Positions 1,853 through 46,307 of a stretch of DNA of 64,000 nucleotides are shown here, piece by piece. This stretch comes from Bdellovibrionales bacterium (GTDB taxonomy: Bacteria > Bdellovibrionota > Bdellovibrionia > Bdellovibrionales > UBA1609): NCBI GenBank assembly GCA_019637855.1, contig JAHBUX010000001.1, positions 271,337 through 335,336 of the forward strand, written 5' to 3'. The notes beneath the pieces are model-generated. The model made no database searches. It worked only from the letters and a program-made list of their open reading frames with translations, and was not told where the DNA came from. Each line of letters begins with the position of its first letter. Positions within the stretch are counted from its first letter, which is position 1. The translations under genes were made by a program, and so were the position numbers.

Positions 1853-2536
1853 ATGTCCGCGTGGGCGACTTTCCTAACCACCATTCAGAATGAAAAAGAG
1901 GTGACCCTTGTCGGCCCCCTCTATCATCAACGCCACACGCCATTAATGCCGACTATATATGTAGATGGTGGCACCCGTTATCGGGCCGCCGGAGGATGGG
2001 TCGCGGAGGCCCATGCGGCCACACATCCCCTAGCGGCCGCCGCGGCACGCCCTTTTCCCGTGGTGAGCGTTGGAGATGGGGATTCGGCAGGCTCAAGCTT
2101 AGACGAACTCTTGCCGGCTGATAAGGATTACTCCGACTTGAGCTTCGTGCTGCGCAGCCTGCCACCCTCCATTCGCGAAGTCACATTGCTTGGGTTCTTA
2201 GGCGGGCGCCGCGATCATGAACTGGCCAACTTGGGCGAAGTGAACGCGTTCCTGCAAACTCGCCCCGGCTTTGCGCGGGCTGACCTTGTCGGCCCGGTCG
2301 GCGACCGCGTGATCGCTTTCAACCGCGGTTCATTGGAACTGCATATTCAAAGTGTGTTTTCGGTGTTTGTTTTCCAGGCGAGCGGTATTGAAGTTTCAGG
2401 CTTGTGTAAATACCCGCTGAGTGCAGAGACAATGCTGTCCCCGCTCAGTAGCCGCACCCTGAGTAATGAAGGTTACGGAAAAGTAATCATCACCAGTTCG
2501 AATCCCTGTTTTATATTTATAGAGAAAAGCGGCTAA
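1853..2536 (+). CDS. Thiamine pyrophosphokinase-like protein
   Basis: The 227-residue protein carries the hallmarks of the thiamine pyrophosphokinase fold: a glycine-rich strand (IYVDGGTRY), VGDGDS in place of the usual GD.DS, K-D-x-S-D (ADKDYSDLSFVL), and GFLGGRRDHELANL, which matches the family GGRxDHxLxNL nucleotide-site motif. The C-terminal beta domain is present (KYPLSAETMLSPLSSRTLSNE). True enzymes convert thiamine to thiamine diphosphate with ATP in the cytosol. The substitution in the first acidic motif and the low overall similarity leave open a related role. It follows the lipoprotein gene after 21 bases containing a small CCCGA/TCGGG hairpin, and its stop overlaps the stop of the convergent SDR gene. 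Confidence 0.65.
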   Translation: MSAWATFLTTIQNEKEVTLVGPLYHQRHTPLMPTIYVDGGTRYRAAGGWVAEAHAATHPLAAAAARPFPVVSVGDGDSAGSSLDELLPADKDYSDLSFVLRSLPPSIREVTLLGFLGGRRDHELANLGEVNAFLQTRPGFARADLVGPVGDRVIAFNRGSLELHIQSVFSVFVFQASGIEVSGLCKYPLSAETMLSPLSSRTLSNEGYGKVIITSSNPCFIFIEKSG

Positions 2537-3447
2537 ACTTGCGCCGGTGTCGGCACTTCGAAGTCCGCATGCTCAAGCTGATAGCGAATTCGGTCTAAAC
2601 AGAATCCAATAAGACGATCAAATGCACGCGACGGTAAGAAGCGCTTTAAAAAAGCGAACACCTGAGCGTCGAGAGTTACCTGCAAACGCAGTGGCGGGCG
2701 CTTCATATTGAGCGCACGACAGATCGCGCCGGCCACTTGGTCCGGCGTCGATGTGGTCATGTGGATAGCTCTGTCGACAAGTGTGGATATCACGCGAGAC
2801 TGCAGGCGATAATTCTGCGCCGTAGGGTTATTTTGTTTATCGAAAGCAAGACCCAAGCGGCAGTTCATATAAGCTTCACTAGCAATAAATCCCGGCTCGA
2901 TCAAAGTGACGCCGATGTTCCAGGGTTTCAGTTCGTGATAAAGCGCTTCACTGGCGCCTTCGAGAGCGTGCTTAGAGGCAGCGTAGAGTCCCATGGTCGG
3001 TACAGAGAAAAAGCCGGCGGCGGAAGACACCATAATCACTCGCCCACCACCCGATTTGCGCAGCAACGGCAGGCATACTTTCACCATCTCTAGCGGAGCA
3101 TGGAAGTTGACCAACATTTGCTCTTTGCTTTCGAATTCGTAGGCATACTCGATAGGCGTGCGGTAAATCACACCGGCATTGTTGATCAGATAGTCCAGCC
3201 GGCCCAATTGCTTTTCAATCTCATCGAGGAGCTCGCGCCGCTCGAGCGCGTTACGCACATCGAGCGGCCGGAGCCAGTATTGGGAGGGGTCCTGCAAAAA
3301 ATCCGCGCATTGCAGGCGTTCGAGGGAGGAGTCCCGCGCAGTGAGGACAACAAAGACACCGCTTTCGAGGAGGCGGCGTGCAGTAGCTAATCCAATTCCA
3401 GTCGACGCACCAGTAACGAGCGCGACTTTGCGAGTGCCGGCATTCAT
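2533..3447 (-). CDS. Short-chain dehydrogenase/reductase
   Basis: A classical SDR of about 304 residues with the Rossmann motif TGASTGIG near the N-terminus, NNAG in strand four, the catalytic Ser in VSSAAGF and the YxxxK pair in YAASKHALEG. It should be an NAD(P)-dependent oxidoreductase; the substrate is not evident. The C-terminal extension (about 50 residues, basic and hydrophobic) resembles SDRs that act on lipids, but this is weak. The start is fixed by an ATGA overlap with the stop of the small membrane protein gene upstream, which implies coupled translation. It is the last gene of an operon that appears to be sigma-54 controlled. Confidence 0.85.
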   Translation of the reverse strand: MNAGTRKVALVTGASTGIGLATARRLLESGVFVVLTARDSSLERLQCADFLQDPSQYWLRPLDVRNALERRELLDEIEKQLGRLDYLINNAGVIYRTPIEYAYEFESKEQMLVNFHAPLEMVKVCLPLLRKSGGGRVIMVSSAAGFFSVPTMGLYAASKHALEGASEALYHELKPWNIGVTLIEPGFIASEAYMNCRLGLAFDKQNNPTAQNYRLQSRVISTLVDRAIHMTTSTPDQVAGAICRALNMKRPPLRLQVTLDAQVFAFLKRFLPSRAFDRLIGFCLDRIRYQLEHADFEVPTPAQV

Positions 3448-3641
3448 GCACCCAACCATTCTGAGCTCGCGCGGCCCAACCATAACGATTTCGTTTCATT
3501 CGTCGTCGGCTTATGTAGCTGACGAGCGATGAGGTGGGTGCAGACGAGTACGCCCGCGCACACCGCCAGGGTGAGCGGAGCCATCAGAATCACGAGAAAA
3601 TACTGAAGGCCCGTGAAAGCGTAAGTCACAACGGTAGTCAT
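3444..3641 (-). CDS. Small single-pass membrane protein
   Basis: A 65-residue protein with one long hydrophobic stretch (about residues 8-38: TYAFTGLQYFLVILMAPLTL and onward) and a short basic cytosolic or periplasmic tail. It has no family I recognise. It is very probably real: a perfect AAGGAGG lies the right distance before its ATG, and its stop overlaps the SDR start as ATGA. It sits third in the operon receiver - HPF-like - this gene - SDR. Overlap with longer frames in other phases makes it easy to miss in automatic annotation. The function is unknown; a small stress-related membrane protein is a guess from context only. Confidence 0.75.
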   Translation of the reverse strand: MTTVVTYAFTGLQYFLVILMAPLTLAVCAGVLVCTHLIARQLHKPTTNETKSLWLGRASSEWLGA

Positions 3642-3652
3642 ACGGACCTCCT

Positions 3653-3955
3653 TCAGTGTTTGCGCACGCGCGTACGCATGCGGTTTGAAACCGTATTGAC
3701 CAGGGAGAAAAACTCATCACCGTGGCCATGTACCACCTCGACCTTTTTTCCGTCGTGGGTGTTCAGAGTGAGCGACATCAGTAGGTGCGGCTGGCGCGCC
3801 TGCATGCGTTTACGTTCCATGGTCAAATGGACCGCCAGATCAAAGTTCTTATGTTTTAGGTGTCGCTCTAGGGGTTCGACAATTTTATGAACGATAGACT
3901 GCTTCATGCTGTCGGACCATTCCATGTCGGCGGATACGTAACGAACTTGGTTCAT
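3653..3955 (-). CDS. HPF/RaiA-like ribosome-associated protein
   Basis: A 100-residue protein with the length and residue pattern of short ribosome hibernation factors: an amphipathic strand (VRYVSADMEW), a helix (MKQSIVHKIVEPLERHLK), strands (FDLAVHLTMERKR, HLLMSLTLNTHDGKKVEVVH) and a final basic helix containing D-E-F-F-S-L-V-N (HPF has D-x-Y/F-A-A-I-D). Such proteins bind the decoding centre and silence or pair ribosomes in starvation. Identity is low, so the call is by pattern rather than by a firm motif. The start is chosen because AAGGAGGG stands right before MNQVRY; a GTG 18 bases earlier would bury that site. It is the second gene of the sigma-54 operon. Confidence 0.6.
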   Translation of the reverse strand: MNQVRYVSADMEWSDSMKQSIVHKIVEPLERHLKHKNFDLAVHLTMERKRMQARQPHLLMSLTLNTHDGKKVEVVHGHGDEFFSLVNTVSNRMRTRVRKH

Positions 3956-3969
3956 GTTCCCTCCTTGGC

Positions 3970-4422
3970 TCACAGGTATTCCTCAAAAACGGATTGGCAA
4001 CGCCCCACTGTCAGCGGTTTCGGCAGATATATGGGACAGTTGTTCACTCCGCGCAAAATTGAAAAGTAGCGGTCAAAGGACAAACATGAAGTGATCACAA
4101 AAGGCATCTTCGGATACATCTGTTGGCAATCGAGCCACACGTCAAAGCCGGTGGTGTCGCCCTCCAAAAAAATGTCGGTGATCACTAAACTATATGGTGA
4201 ATCGCCGCGAAACTTACCGCGGCGGCGGATCAGTTCTAGCGCCTCTTCACCGCTGGTGACATATTCCCATTCCAATCCGGGCTTCATCTCATCCAGGATG
4301 GTGTCAATGAACTGAATCAAAGACAGATCATCTTCGATCACGAGAAGTGATTTGGGCGCAGTGACTAACGACAAAAAGTCGTTCTTCTTCTCCGCCGATT
4401 CGACCGGAGCCGTTTGATTCAT
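3970..4422 (-). CDS. Single-domain response regulator
   Basis: A 150-residue protein: a 23-residue N-terminal extension and one receiver domain. The acidic pair is D31/D32 (LVIEDD), the phosphoacceptor is D83 (VITDIFLEGD), T111 or S112 and K135 (LPKPL) complete the active site. There is no output domain, so it works as a phosphate sink, relay or protein-binding switch. A GAGGAGG ribosome site precedes the ATG. It heads the operon with the HPF-like, small membrane and SDR genes, and is divergent from an NtrC-type regulator and hybrid kinase that could phosphorylate it; that pairing is inferred from position. Confidence 0.9.
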   Translation of the reverse strand: MNQTAPVESAEKKNDFLSLVTAPKSLLVIEDDLSLIQFIDTILDEMKPGLEWEYVTSGEEALELIRRRGKFRGDSPYSLVITDIFLEGDTTGFDVWLDCQQMYPKMPFVITSCLSFDRYFSILRGVNNCPIYLPKPLTVGRCQSVFEEYL

Positions 4423-4448
4423 GGGATGTCCTCCTCGCTTTTAACTTC

Positions 4449-4465
4449 AGCAAGCGCAGTGCCAA
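4449..4465 (-). promoter_or_regulatory. Sigma-54 (-24/-12) promoter of the 4422-2533 operon
   Basis: Read on the minus strand the sequence is TTGGCACTGCGCTTGCT. The accepted sigma-54 consensus is YTGGCACG-N4-TTGCW; this site differs at one position (T for G after the CAC). The GG and GC dinucleotides are correctly spaced. Transcription would start about 12 bases downstream, giving a leader of about 15 bases before the receiver gene. The gene immediately upstream in the opposite direction encodes a sigma-54 activator, and palindromic sites lie at typical enhancer distances upstream. Confidence 0.8.
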
Positions 4466-4504
4466 AATGGGTTCTGCATAAATTGCTGTCCTGGTTCCGA
4501 TACG

Positions 4505-4601
4505 GCCTCATTGAGGCAAACTTGGCCAAAACCCTGAGGCAGCTTGCCTCACACGCCAGGCAAAAGAGCAAAGACTCAGTACCTTAACTGAGGCTCCTCA
4601 G
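4505..4601. promoter_or_regulatory. Cluster of three TGAGGC palindromes (probable activator sites)
   Basis: Three inverted repeats share the half-site TGAGGC: GCCTCATTGAGGC at 4505-4517, TGAGGCAGCTTGCCTCA at 4535-4551 (perfect 7-bp arms) and CTGAGGCTCCTCAG at 4588-4601. They lie 40-150 bp upstream of the sigma-54 promoter, where enhancer sites for NtrC-type proteins are usually found, and the third is just upstream of a TATAAT reading towards the activator gene. I infer that the 4743 activator binds here, switching on the leftward operon and controlling its own gene. Confidence 0.65.
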
Positions 4602-4622
4602 GTAACGAGTCCTCTCCACCGC

Positions 4623-4628
4623 TATAAT
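4623..4628 (+). promoter_or_regulatory. Possible -10 element of the activator gene
   Basis: A perfect TATAAT lies 115 bases upstream of the activator start. The expected -35 position, 17 bases further up, has no good match and is overlapped by the third TGAGGC palindrome, which would fit an activator- or repressor-dependent promoter. Only the hexamer itself is seen. Confidence 0.35.
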
Positions 4629-4705
4629 CTTGTGCAATTTGGACTTGATAAACCCCTACTCTTACAGTCAATATCGCTTCCACGAGGCATTCGGCCACAA
4701 AAAAC

Positions 4706-4722
4706 GGGGCAAGCTGCCTCCG
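4706..4722. promoter_or_regulatory. Fourth, imperfect TGAGGC-type palindrome
   Basis: GGGGCAAGCTGCCTCC is, apart from the outermost positions, the reverse complement of the perfect 4535-4551 site (core GGCAAGCTGCCTC). It lies 20 bases before the activator ATG, downstream of the possible TATAAT, where bound protein would block transcription or translation initiation. Autorepression is an inference. Confidence 0.5.
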
Positions 4723-4742
4723 TCGTGGACTATGGAGGCTAA

Positions 4743-6101
4743 ATGGCACGGCTCGTAATCGTAGACGATGATTTGGCCATACATGATCTATTAAGGGTGT
4801 TCTTTCAGGACCTGGGGCACGATGTCCGTTGTTTTGAGAACGTGACCAGCGCCAGCCAGCATCTCAAAGAGCGTGGACACGAAACGGACCTTATCGTTTC
4901 CGACCTGCGTTTGCCCGACGGTACGGGCCTCGCCCTCATGCCGGTACTTAAGCAAAATGGTTTAGATATCCCTCTCATATTGATCACTGCTTATGGCTCC
5001 GCAGAGATCGGCGCCAATGCTCTAAAAAAAGGCATCTTCGATTATATCACCAAGCCGCTCAATCTCACCGAACTAGAAGTGATTTGTAATCGCGCCATCA
5101 AACTAAAGCGCCTAGAGAAGAGCCTGCTCGACCTGCGTTCGATGGTGGATGAAACTCGCCGCTTCCACGGTTTCGTTGGCAATAGTACGAAGATGCGTGA
5201 GGTGTTCGACATCATCGATAAGGTGGCCGACACCGCGTCCAGCATACTTGTCACCGGGGAGAGTGGCACCGGCAAGGAGTTGGTCGCCAGAGCCATTCAC
5301 GAACGTGGGCGACGCAGCTCACAACCGTTTGTGGCCATCAACTGTTCGGCCATTCCCCACGAGCTCTTGGAGTCGGAACTCTTTGGCTATAAGAAAGGCG
5401 CTTTCACCGGCGCCACCGATGACCGTAAAGGACTGTTTGAGGAAGCCGACGGCGGTACTCTGTTCTTGGATGAAATCGGCGATATGCCCGCTTTGTTGCA
5501 AGCCAAACTCTTGCGTGTTTTGCAAGAACGACGGATCAAACGCTTGGGCGAAAACACGGATCGCGTCGTCGATGTGCGGATCGTGGCTGCCACTCATCGC
5601 GATCTGAAAACGGCCATTCAGAAAAAAGAATTTCGCGAGGATCTGTTTTTCCGCCTGTGTGTCATCAAAGTTTCGATCCCGCCGTTACGTGATCGCAAAG
5701 ATGATATTCCATTGATCGCCAATCATTTTTTACGCAAATTCGCATCACTCAATGAGAAGACCATCTCGGGTTTCACACGCGAAGCCATGACTGCGCTGCT
5801 CGCCGCCCCCTGGCTGGGCAATGTGCGCGAACTTGAAAACACCATCGAGCGCGCCGTCGCTCTGTGTGCCACGCACTGGATCGACGCCGTCGATTTAAGC
5901 CTGGAGACTCCCATCCTACCATCAGAAAGCAAAACGGATCGTTTGTTCGCCCGACTGCCCACTCTGAAGGAGCTTGAACGCGAATACATTCATCATGTGC
6001 TGACTTCGACTGGTGGCAAGAAGGAAGAGGTCGCCGCCATCTTAGGCATCGACCGCAAGACCCTGTATCGCAAGGAACGCGAATACAACTTGAACTCGTA
6101 A
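4743..6101 (+). CDS. NtrC-family sigma-54 response regulator
   Basis: The 452-residue protein has all three NtrC domains. Receiver: D8-D10, phosphoacceptor D54 (VSDLRLPDG), T82, K104. AAA+ domain about 140-370: Walker A GESGTGKE at 172-179, the sigma-54 contact loop GAFTGA at 219-224, Walker [10 protein letters not shown] at 239-247. C-terminal Fis-type helix-turn-helix about 415-450. All key residues are intact, so it should open sigma-54 promoters when phosphorylated. GGAGG precedes the ATG. The hybrid kinase starts about ten bases after its stop and is the natural partner; the divergent operon with its sigma-54 promoter is the natural target. Confidence 0.95.
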
Positions 6102-6111
6102 AAGGGGAGTG

Positions 6112-8598
6112 ATGAACACAAGGACCGGACATACGCGGAAACTATGGCGCTGGCTGCGGACCTTTGATTTCAAGGATCTCGGCTTTCTGTACCTCGCCTG
6201 CATGGTTACTGTTGTTGTGCTGTTCACGATCTTCCGCACCTGCCAGTACTACCTTAACACCACCGAGGCGAGCGAACTCAATGCCATTCACTGGCTGCAA
6301 GAGCAACGCGATCGGGTCGCCGAACTTGAACGACTACTAGCATTTGCGCAAAGCACTCCCGGCGCTGTGCCCGCCGGTCTCGAAACTCAACTGCAGTCAA
6401 CCTATACGGATTTGCGCAAGAGTCATGGTGATATCAAAGCAGTGCACACAGCTTTAAGCGAGTTGTGCGCCGAGTTCCCCTGCGCAGGTCTACAAACTCC
6501 GGAGATCTTTACCAACGGTGGCAAGCTGCCGCCCCTGGAGACCATAGAACAAACACAGGCCGTGTTAAGCAGCGCGCTGGCCTATCATGCCGACCTTAAA
6601 GATGCCATTGAGCGCGCCGTCGCCGAGCTGCGCGAAACCAATTTGGCCGGCGCCAATTTCGATACCATAGCCTATCTGTCACTGTTGCTTTTGCTCGTTT
6701 TACAGGCGTTGTTTATATTCGGTCCTGCCATCCGTAAATTGAACGCGTCGCTGTCGACTCGGTCGGACTTCTTAAGCCGCATCAGTCACGAGATTCGCAA
6801 TCCCATGAACTCCATTATCGGCATGGCCGACATTCTTAAGGGCACCAAGCTCAATTACGAACAACAGCAGTATGTAGACAATCTGCTGCGCTCGGGCCAA
6901 GCGTTGCTCGACATGCTTAACAATTTGATCGATTTTTCTTCGATCGAGAGTCGTAAGCTCACCTTGAACCCGCAGCCTTTTGATCTGTTCAAGTCTTTAG
7001 AACGTTGTTTGTCGCTGATTTCCATTCAAGCCCACCACAAAAATCTGAACGTCTATGTCTCACTCAGCCCGAAGATCAGCCAGCGTCTAGAGGGTGACTC
7101 CGTTCGCCTTGAGCAAGTGTTGATCAATTTACTGAAAAATGCGGCCAAATTCACCGAGCAAGGTTCGATCACACTGAATGTCGAGGTCGAAGCCGAGACC
7201 GAAGGCAGTGTGCAACTGCTGTTTTCTGTCGAGGACACTGGCATCGGAATTCGTCAGGATCAGCTGGGCGAGATCTTTGAAAGCTTTGTACAGGGCGACT
7301 CCAGCATTCAAAGAAAGTATGGCGGTTCAGGGCTGGGGCTTTCTATCTCAAGCGAATTGATCCGTTTGATGGGAGGTCAACTCAACGTTCATAGTGATCT
7401 GGGCAAGGGTTCGACCTTCTTTTTCTCCGTACGTTTGAACAAACAAGCGCCACGGCCCGATGTCATTGCCAAACCACTTACACCCTTGATCGGTCAAAAG
7501 TTTGCTTTCCTGACGGCGCCTCCCGAGAAGGCCGTTTATACCGAACTATTTGAGAAACTGCAGGCCCCGACCGCTGTCCTGGCCACAGCGCAAGAGCTGC
7601 GCCACGCACTGGAACAAAGCTCGGGCGGCATAAGCGAGATTTTGATCGATGATTCGGTGGGAATTATTTCGATGATCAACTGTCGTAACGCCGCTGACCA
7701 GCACGGTTTAGGCGATCGCTCTGTCGCCCTGATTCGCTCAAACTTTACCAAAGAGAATATGGATCTCTTGCGTCGTAACGGTTTTATGCGTTTTTTGATC
7801 AAGCCCTTGAAACCTTGGGATCTTCTCAGCCTTCCCGCCCAGCTGAGCGAAGAGCAAAACGCGGCCGGGGCACGGCCGTTGATCAACAAGCTCAAAGAAA
7901 AAAACTTGCGCATGCTTTTGGTCGATGATTCCAATGACAATCTGTTTTTGCTGAAAGAGGTCGTACAACCTCTCGCCTCCACCATTCACTTCGCTGAAAA
8001 TGGACTGGATGCGATCGAAAAATTTCGTCAACACCCCTACGATGTAGTCTTCATGGATATCCAAATGCCTGTAATGGACGGCTACACCGCCATTCGTAAA
8101 ATGCGCGAAATGGAAGCGGGCGCGCAAGGCCAGACGGTGCCGATCTACGCGGTCACGGCCCACGCCGGATTGGTTGACGCACAAAAATGCCGTGAGGCAG
8201 GCTTTACCGATCGCATCGTTAAACCTGTGGTGCGCACGGATATTTATCAGTCTCTTTCCAAGGCCTTTGCGCTCGATGTGACCGCTGACTTCGACGAGGG
8301 TGATACGGGAAGTGCTGTACCGTCCAAGTATCTCGACAAACTCATACCCACCTACCTACGAACACGTTTTGAAGATATGGTGAAGCTGCGGGCTGCTCTT
8401 GCCAGCTGTGACTTCAATACCATCTCAGCACTTGGGCATAAAATTAAGGGCAGTGCTGCCAGCTATGGGTTTCCGCGAGTCAGTGAGCGCGCGAAACAGC
8501 TTGAGCATGCCGCACAGAGCGCAAACCTCGAGCGTTGCCAAACGATTGCCGATGAACTGGATCAGATGTTCCATGAAGAGCAACGCCGACGCAATTGA
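6112..8598 (+). CDS. Hybrid sensor histidine kinase with receiver and HPt domains
   Basis: About 828 residues. Two membrane segments (about 25-45 and 185-206) enclose a periplasmic helical domain of roughly 140 residues that lacks a named sensor family. Then come a HisKA domain (SHEIRNPMNS, His near residue 226), an ATPase domain with N, G1 (DTGIGI) and G2 (GGSGLGLSI) boxes, a region of about 130 residues that looks like a receiver without its aspartate, a true receiver (FMDIQMPVMDG, Asp near 649) and a C-terminal HPt domain (HKIKGSA, His near 776). This is a complete His-Asp-His phosphorelay in one chain, which could pass phosphate to the neighbouring regulator or to the receiver protein at 3970. 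The start is ATG 6112 or GTG 6109; GGGGAG is unusually close to both. Confidence 0.9.
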   Translation: MNTRTGHTRKLWRWLRTFDFKDLGFLYLACMVTVVVLFTIFRTCQYYLNTTEASELNAIHWLQEQRDRVAELERLLAFAQSTPGAVPAGLETQLQSTYTDLRKSHGDIKAVHTALSELCAEFPCAGLQTPEIFTNGGKLPPLETIEQTQAVLSSALAYHADLKDAIERAVAELRETNLAGANFDTIAYLSLLLLLVLQALFIFGPAIRKLNASLSTRSDFLSRISHEIRNPMNSIIGMADILKGTKLNYEQQQYVDNLLRSGQALLDMLNNLIDFSSIESRKLTLNPQPFDLFKSLERCLSLISIQAHHKNLNVYVSLSPKISQRLEGDSVRLEQVLINLLKNAAKFTEQGSITLNVEVEAETEGSVQLLFSVEDTGIGIRQDQLGEIFESFVQGDSSIQRKYGGSGLGLSISSELIRLMGGQLNVHSDLGKGSTFFFSVRLNKQAPRPDVIAKPLTPLIGQKFAFLTAPPEKAVYTELFEKLQAPTAVLATAQELRHALEQSSGGISEILIDDSVGIISMINCRNAADQHGLGDRSVALIRSNFTKENMDLLRRNGFMRFLIKPLKPWDLLSLPAQLSEEQNAAGARPLINKLKEKNLRMLLVDDSNDNLFLLKEVVQPLASTIHFAENGLDAIEKFRQHPYDVVFMDIQMPVMDGYTAIRKMREMEAGAQGQTVPIYAVTAHAGLVDAQKCREAGFTDRIVKPVVRTDIYQSLSKAFALDVTADFDEGDTGSAVPSKYLDKLIPTYLRTRFEDMVKLRAALASCDFNTISALGHKIKGSAASYGFPRVSERAKQLEHAAQSANLERCQTIADELDQMFHEEQRRRN

Positions 8599-45969: not shown

Positions 45970-46087
45970 GTTGTTACAGGACGAAGTGCCAATTCTAGAA
46001 AAAACAGCTGCGGCACGGGTTTTGATGCCTGTGACGGCGCCTTGGAACTCTGCTAGGCTGACCGTAGTTCTGTGGGCTGATGACAAA

Positions 46088-46206
46088 AGTAAACCCTACA
46101 AGAACATTTTTGGGGGCCGTCCCTGGTGATGGTGTGCAAGCTCACTTTAAGTGAGAAGCCTAAAGTCGCTATCATGGTCACCCACCTTGACTAAAACGGG
46201 TTTACT
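46088..46206. ncRNA. Candidate structured RNA
   Basis: Inside the 419-base gap between the small membrane protein and the secreted coiled-coil protein, AGTAAACCC (46088-46096) pairs perfectly with GGGTTTACT (46198-46206), enclosing a 101-base interior that carries a perfect 15-base palindrome (CTCACTTTAAGTGAG, 46141-46155) and a GGTGA/TCACC pair. It has no coding frame and no motif I know (no SRP, 6S, RNase P or GEMM riboswitch signatures). The rest of the gap holds the palindrome and sigma-54 element described below. Orientation is undetermined; the hairpins fit either strand. Confidence 0.3.
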
Positions 46207-46307
46207 GGATCACTCATGCCCACAGGATTTTTTATCTCTTTCGTCATACCTGACGAGCCTTAAGCCCAGCCCCTGCAGCAAAGCCACTTCCCCTCTGGGA
46301 AACTCTG

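Follow-up and report, generated by a model that had tools for sequence, protein, structure and literature searches.

Which regulator acts on the 320-bp spacer (4423-4742) that separates the leftward response-regulator gene (3970-4422) from the rightward activator gene (4743-6101), and what are the palindromes within it for? We analysed this locus in a 64-kb window (the whole stretch of DNA under study) and compared its source genome (G000) with three other genomes of the genus (G001, G002 and G003). GAGGC/GCCTC words occur 8 times in the spacer versus a mean of 0.6 per 320-bp window of the 64 kb, and no other place in the 64 kb is as dense in them; dinucleotide shuffles gave a mean of 1.0 such words, and 8 were reached in 0 of 2000. 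No RNA family was found within the spacer, and its membership in a repeat family was ruled out by the absence of a second DNA match from the genus genomes. The spacer carries a predicted sigma-54 promoter and paired putative sites, probably bound by the regulator encoded alongside. Our preferred reading, which we regard as likely, is a divergent control region in which the activator would use paired 17-bp sites to activate, through sigma-54, an operon for a response regulator, an HPF-like protein and a short-chain dehydrogenase (SDR), from a spacer that has apparently been duplicated.

The first gene of this operon (3970-4422, minus strand) codes for a single-domain response regulator (PF00072, a weak match below cut-off), whose orthologs in G001 and G002 are also accompanied by a -24/-12 element. 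It is followed on the same strand by a gene for a divergent HPF/YfiA-like (S30AE) protein (3653-3955), which scores 25 bits for PF02482 (cut-off 23.7) and 23.5 for TIGR00741 (cut-off 40.9), and by an SDR gene (2533-3447, minus strand; PF00106), the last of the presumed operon, which is kept in G002 and was not found in G001. A short unassigned ORF (3444-3641) lies between these two genes. The label of a stress-like operon, given in the preliminary description, is fair for this combination of response regulator, divergent HPF/YfiA-like protein and SDR, but weak. Three better S30AE matches lie elsewhere in the source genome (C21:152976-153245, C21:40727-41014 and C1:115732-116025), one of them about 0.5 kb from rpoN, and the HPF-like copy of the window (3653-3955) falls below the threshold of a six-frame S30AE search.

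The leftward operon is predicted to be driven by a sigma-54 (-24/-12) promoter, TGGCACTGCGCTTGCT (4449-4464, minus strand), which departs from TGGCACGN4TTGCW at one position, as had been described, and is the only element of the 64-kb window with a score of 11. Its GG and GC stand at the spacing required of such promoters, and rpoN is present in the genome, where one sigma-54 was seen. Seven exact matches to TGGCACN5TTGCW were found genome-wide, TGGCACTGCGCTTGCT among them, versus 3 for a backwards control; since further exact matches precede a flagellar rod gene and genes for small exported proteins, this promoter type is apparently in use. Perfect counterparts stand at the orthologous response-regulator gene in G001 (TGGCACCGCTATTGCT) and G002 (TGGCACTGGTATTGCT), and the -24/-12 element is kept before this operon in three species (G000, G001 and G002).

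The rightward gene (4743-6101, plus strand) codes for an NtrC-family response-regulator activator (PF00072, PF00158, PF25601 and PF02954), the presumed binder of the sites. With its REC domain, its sigma-54 AAA domain carrying GAFTGA and its Fis-type HTH, the protein has the domain set of a group I enhancer-binding protein, which together with rpoN bears out its first assignment as NtrC-type. None of its best 25 NCBIfam matches reaches the equivalog cut-off: its score is 438.8 bits for NF008469 (AtoC), the best, versus a cut-off of 714, 418.2 bits for TIGR01818 (NtrC) versus 558.6, and 384.4 for the ZraR profile versus 760. Adjoining it is a gene for a hybrid sensor kinase of the arrangement HisKA-HATPase-REC-Hpt (6109-8598, plus strand; Pfam), the likely partner, whose G001 ortholog is 56% identical.

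Three 17-bp dyads in the spacer fit YGAGGC-N5-GCCTCR, at 4535-4551 (12 of 12 positions), 4683-4699 (11 of 12) and 4705-4721 (10 of 12), and three 6-5-6 dyads scoring at least 10 of 12 arose in none of 2000 shuffles. We name the candidate sites, to none of which a strand is assigned, A1 and A2 on the side of the promoter and B1 and B2 on the side of the activator. A1 (4512-4530), 57 bp from the -24 GG, is degenerate with one intact half TGAGGC; it overlaps the inverted repeat GCCTCATTGAGGC (4505-4517) and aligns with both B1 and the site at -57 in G001. A2 (4535-4551), 80 bp from the -24 GG, is the perfect 6-5-6 palindrome TGAGGC-AGCTT-GCCTCA. B1 (4683-4699, CGAGGC-ATTCG-GCCACA) is the best-conserved site, with 13 bases (GAGGCATTCGGCC) identical in G001, and B2 (4705-4721, CGGGGC-AAGCT-GCCTCC) follows at 22 bp, or about two helical turns; this pair lies 22 to 60 bp ahead of the activator start codon. 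The preliminary description had counted four inverted repeats of one half-site. The abundance of the half-site, with 8 GAGGC/GCCTC words, agrees with this, but the repeat GCCTCATTGAGGC at 4505 has a half-site spacing other than 6-5-6, the palindrome TTAACTGAGGCTCCTCAGGTAA (4584-4605, no strand assigned), which reads TTAACTGAGG-CT-CCTCAGGTAA and lacks a counterpart in G001, also differs in spacing, and 4683-4699 had been missed. That the second and fourth repeats are near reverse complements was correct, in that the 13-mer 4536-4548 in A2 is the exact reverse complement of 4708-4720 in B2. A genome-wide search for TGAGGCA-N3-TGCCTCA, which had been suggested, returned a single exact copy, that at 4535-4551 (A2), and the exact form TGAGGCA-N0-6-TGCCTCA was ruled out as a genome-wide operator by this one copy.

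The arrangement resembles that of known group I systems. In Enterobacteria, the NtrC operator at glnA consists of paired 17-bp 6-5-6 dyads, TGCACC-N5-GGTGCA, upstream of a -24/-12 promoter. Both systems have a REC-AAA-Fis activator and paired dyads of the same geometry above a -24/-12 element, an approximately integral number of helical turns apart. Unlike at glnA, the half-site here is TGAGGC and not TGCACC, so that the earlier statement that the palindromes differ from the NtrC operator (TGAGGC-N5-GCCTCA versus TGCACC-N5-GGTGCA) holds; the place of NtrB is taken by the likely partner, an Hpt-bearing hybrid kinase, the target is the response regulator-HPF-SDR operon, and the activator scores below the NtrC equivalog cut-off. 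Activators of the AtoC/ZraR type with a divergent, self-controlled operon share with this locus the divergent gene order and the common spacer, and AtoC gives the best profile score, but the protein is far below both cut-offs and the targets here are not acetoacetate or zinc genes. The putative operator YGAGGC-N5-GCCTCR is, on sequence grounds, new, and the architecture around it is classical, indeed of textbook kind. A search of open-access literature text for the half-site together with sigma54 and enhancer-binding protein returned no paper, which is weak evidence of absence.

Among the genomes compared, one other, G001, has an orthologous activator (79% identical), and the conservation of the sites therefore rests on two spacers. 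Gene order is the same in G001, with the response-regulator and HPF genes leftward and the activator and kinase genes rightward, around a spacer of 160 bp that holds one perfect -24/-12 element (TGGCACCGCTATTGCT) and, upstream of it, one pair of 6-5-6 dyads, CGAGGC-ATTCG-GCCTCA and TGTGGC-AACAT-GCCACG, whose distances to the -24 GG are 57 and 78 bp. The second dyad is the counterpart of B2, and the distance of B1/B2 to the activator ATG equals that of the G001 pair within one base. Most of the remaining spacer has diverged between the window and G001, and the site pair is kept. Absence of the palindromes from orthologous spacers had been named beforehand as evidence against the proposal; G001 keeps two 6-5-6 palindromes in matching place. 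The proposed enhancer-type layout with an adjacent regulator is thus supported, at the level of sequence comparison, by synteny, a perfect -24/-12 element and a dyad pair of the same family in G001. We also ran a tandem-site pattern (GAGGC-N5-GCC-N6-14-GGC-N5-GCC) over 20 genomes, 16 of them outside the genus. It matched this spacer in G000 (on both strands) and in G001, plus 3 scattered places in the genus; the 16 genomes from outside the genus gave no match, and the backwards control gave one over all 20.

G002 presents a different case, in which the response-regulator, HPF and SDR genes are found with a perfect -24/-12 element (TGGCACTGGTATTGCT), without an adjacent orthologous activator and without the site pair. 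From this, the sigma-54 promoter is the more widely kept trait of the operon, with activator and operator varying, and the operon may also run under another activator. The nearest activator homolog in G002 (L122:8394-9944) has GSFTGA in place of GAFTGA; it has Hpt and hybrid-kinase genes beside it and lies 3 kb from the response regulator-HPF-SDR operon. The G002 arrangement speaks for an alternative in which a different DNA-binding protein, either another Fis-HTH activator or a repressor, uses the sites and the targets of the adjacent activator are at other loci; so does the large number of candidates, at least 42 activator-family or activator-domain matches in the source genome. Against this, the sites adjoin the activator gene in both G000 and G001, and in the genus the site pair occurs at the operon only alongside the orthologous activator with an identical recognition helix (17 of 17 residues between G000 and G001, compared with 10 to 11 of 17 in the G002/G003 homologs compared). 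We consider such a different binder improbable.

In the window, the spacer seems to have arisen when a unit of promoter plus site pair, still single in G001, was duplicated in tandem. Copy A appears to have retained its -24/-12 element, and copy B, beside the activator, to have lost its own, of which a decayed remnant, TTGCACAAGATTATAG (4622-4637, minus strand), can be recognised by alignment with the G001 promoter region. Copy B (4612-4735) aligns to the G001 unit with a score of 25.5, the maximum of 500 shuffles being 14.5. Copy A aligns with G001 over its whole length, promoter and both sites included, with 6 of 500 shuffles scoring at least as well, and the direct alignment of the two copies is not significant (55 of 500 as high). 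Shared functional elements could mimic the look of a duplication, and the copy A alignment is only moderately significant. The same features lend something to a further alternative, in which the -24/-12 element alone is functional and the palindromes mostly remain from duplication and GC-rich repeat, or form hairpins in DNA or RNA: A2 and B2 share exact 13-base reverse complements, 4584-4605 fits no site model, and the spacer looks duplicated. Yet G001, where no duplication is seen, keeps the pair equally far from the start of the activator amid spacer sequence most of which has diverged, and we regard this alternative as highly improbable. Under the preferred reading of a divergent control region, a promoter-enhancer unit was seemingly duplicated and its function then divided between two divergent genes.

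In the mechanism that we propose, a signal would reach the hybrid kinase and pass through the Hpt phosphorelay to the REC domain of the activator, whose phosphorylated oligomers would occupy the paired dyads YGAGGC-N5-GCCTCR. Bound at A1 and A2, 57 and 80 bp above the -24 GG, the activator ring would contact sigma-54 polymerase at 4449-4464 by DNA looping, and this polymerase would then express the response regulator-HPF-SDR genes. The single-domain response regulator may act as a phosphate sink and so feed back on the relay. B1/B2 could serve as an extra enhancer, in autoregulation, or in both. Self-regulation of the activator through this pair is plausible from position only; no sigma-70 promoter at consensus level was recognised for the activator in the spacer, which leaves its promoter, and with it autoregulation, without an assigned place. 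The decayed -24/-12 element of copy B (4622-4637) now reads TATAAT on the plus strand (4623-4628), towards the activator, with no -35 recognised. The locus offers a concrete candidate operator for one of more than 40 sigma-54 activator-family matches in a Bdellovibrio-type genome, together with a small, testable regulon.

Could the same putative site serve further genes? Dyads with one mismatch number 40 per strand in the source genome versus 27 in the control, and since nearly all are inside ORFs and the excess over the control is modest, most are background. Of these 40 we inspected 35, all except those on C25 and C26, and two outside the spacer have a -24 GG at 48 bp on their downstream side, ahead of a lipoprotein gene on C8 in one case and of a YflT-like gene on C1 in the other; about 0.15 such pairings are expected by chance (P about 0.01, with the background rate taken from this window). 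In G001, a one-mismatch site lies at -78 before a secreted-protein gene (C2), and in each of the four species the lipoprotein family carries a -24/-12-like element. These cases favour an extension of the preferred reading, not exclusive of it, in which the activator is a wider regulator of envelope and stress genes. Against it, no dyad was found near the lipoprotein homologs of G001 to G003, the transcript of the YflT-like gene would have next to no leader, and a joint pattern of site and -24/-12 element adds one case only, in G001 (C9:39515-39582), where a perfect -24/-12 element precedes genes for a small DUF1328-like membrane protein and a hemerythrin-like protein (named by eye) and the near-site, 40 bases upstream, is off by one base in half-site spacing. 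The joint pattern is no independent test because it was written after three of its matches had been seen. Its match at flgF in G002 was rejected for a different half-site spacing, and its match in G011 lies inside an ORF. We put the wider regulon forward tentatively, as possible but doubtful.

Control by sigma-54, with many activators, of genes for the cell exterior (envelope, lipoprotein and stress functions) has been described (Francke et al. 2011, PMC3162934; Carrera-Reyna et al. 2025, PMC12316311), and the candidate targets here are likewise of envelope, lipoprotein and stress type; a text search of the two papers gave no mention of Bdellovibrio. A reading that goes further still is that relatives of Bdellovibrio have a sigma-54 stress regulon specific to their lineage, in which a kinase-Hpt-activator relay and the new operator YGAGGC-N5-GCCTCR would couple a ribosome-hibernation-like protein to envelope lipoproteins and do the work done in other bacteria by RpoS or SigB; we think it unlikely in this full form. 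Elsewhere in the window, its sole Rfam match is a 6S RNA (RF00013, 67.3 bits) at 46064-46232 on the plus strand.
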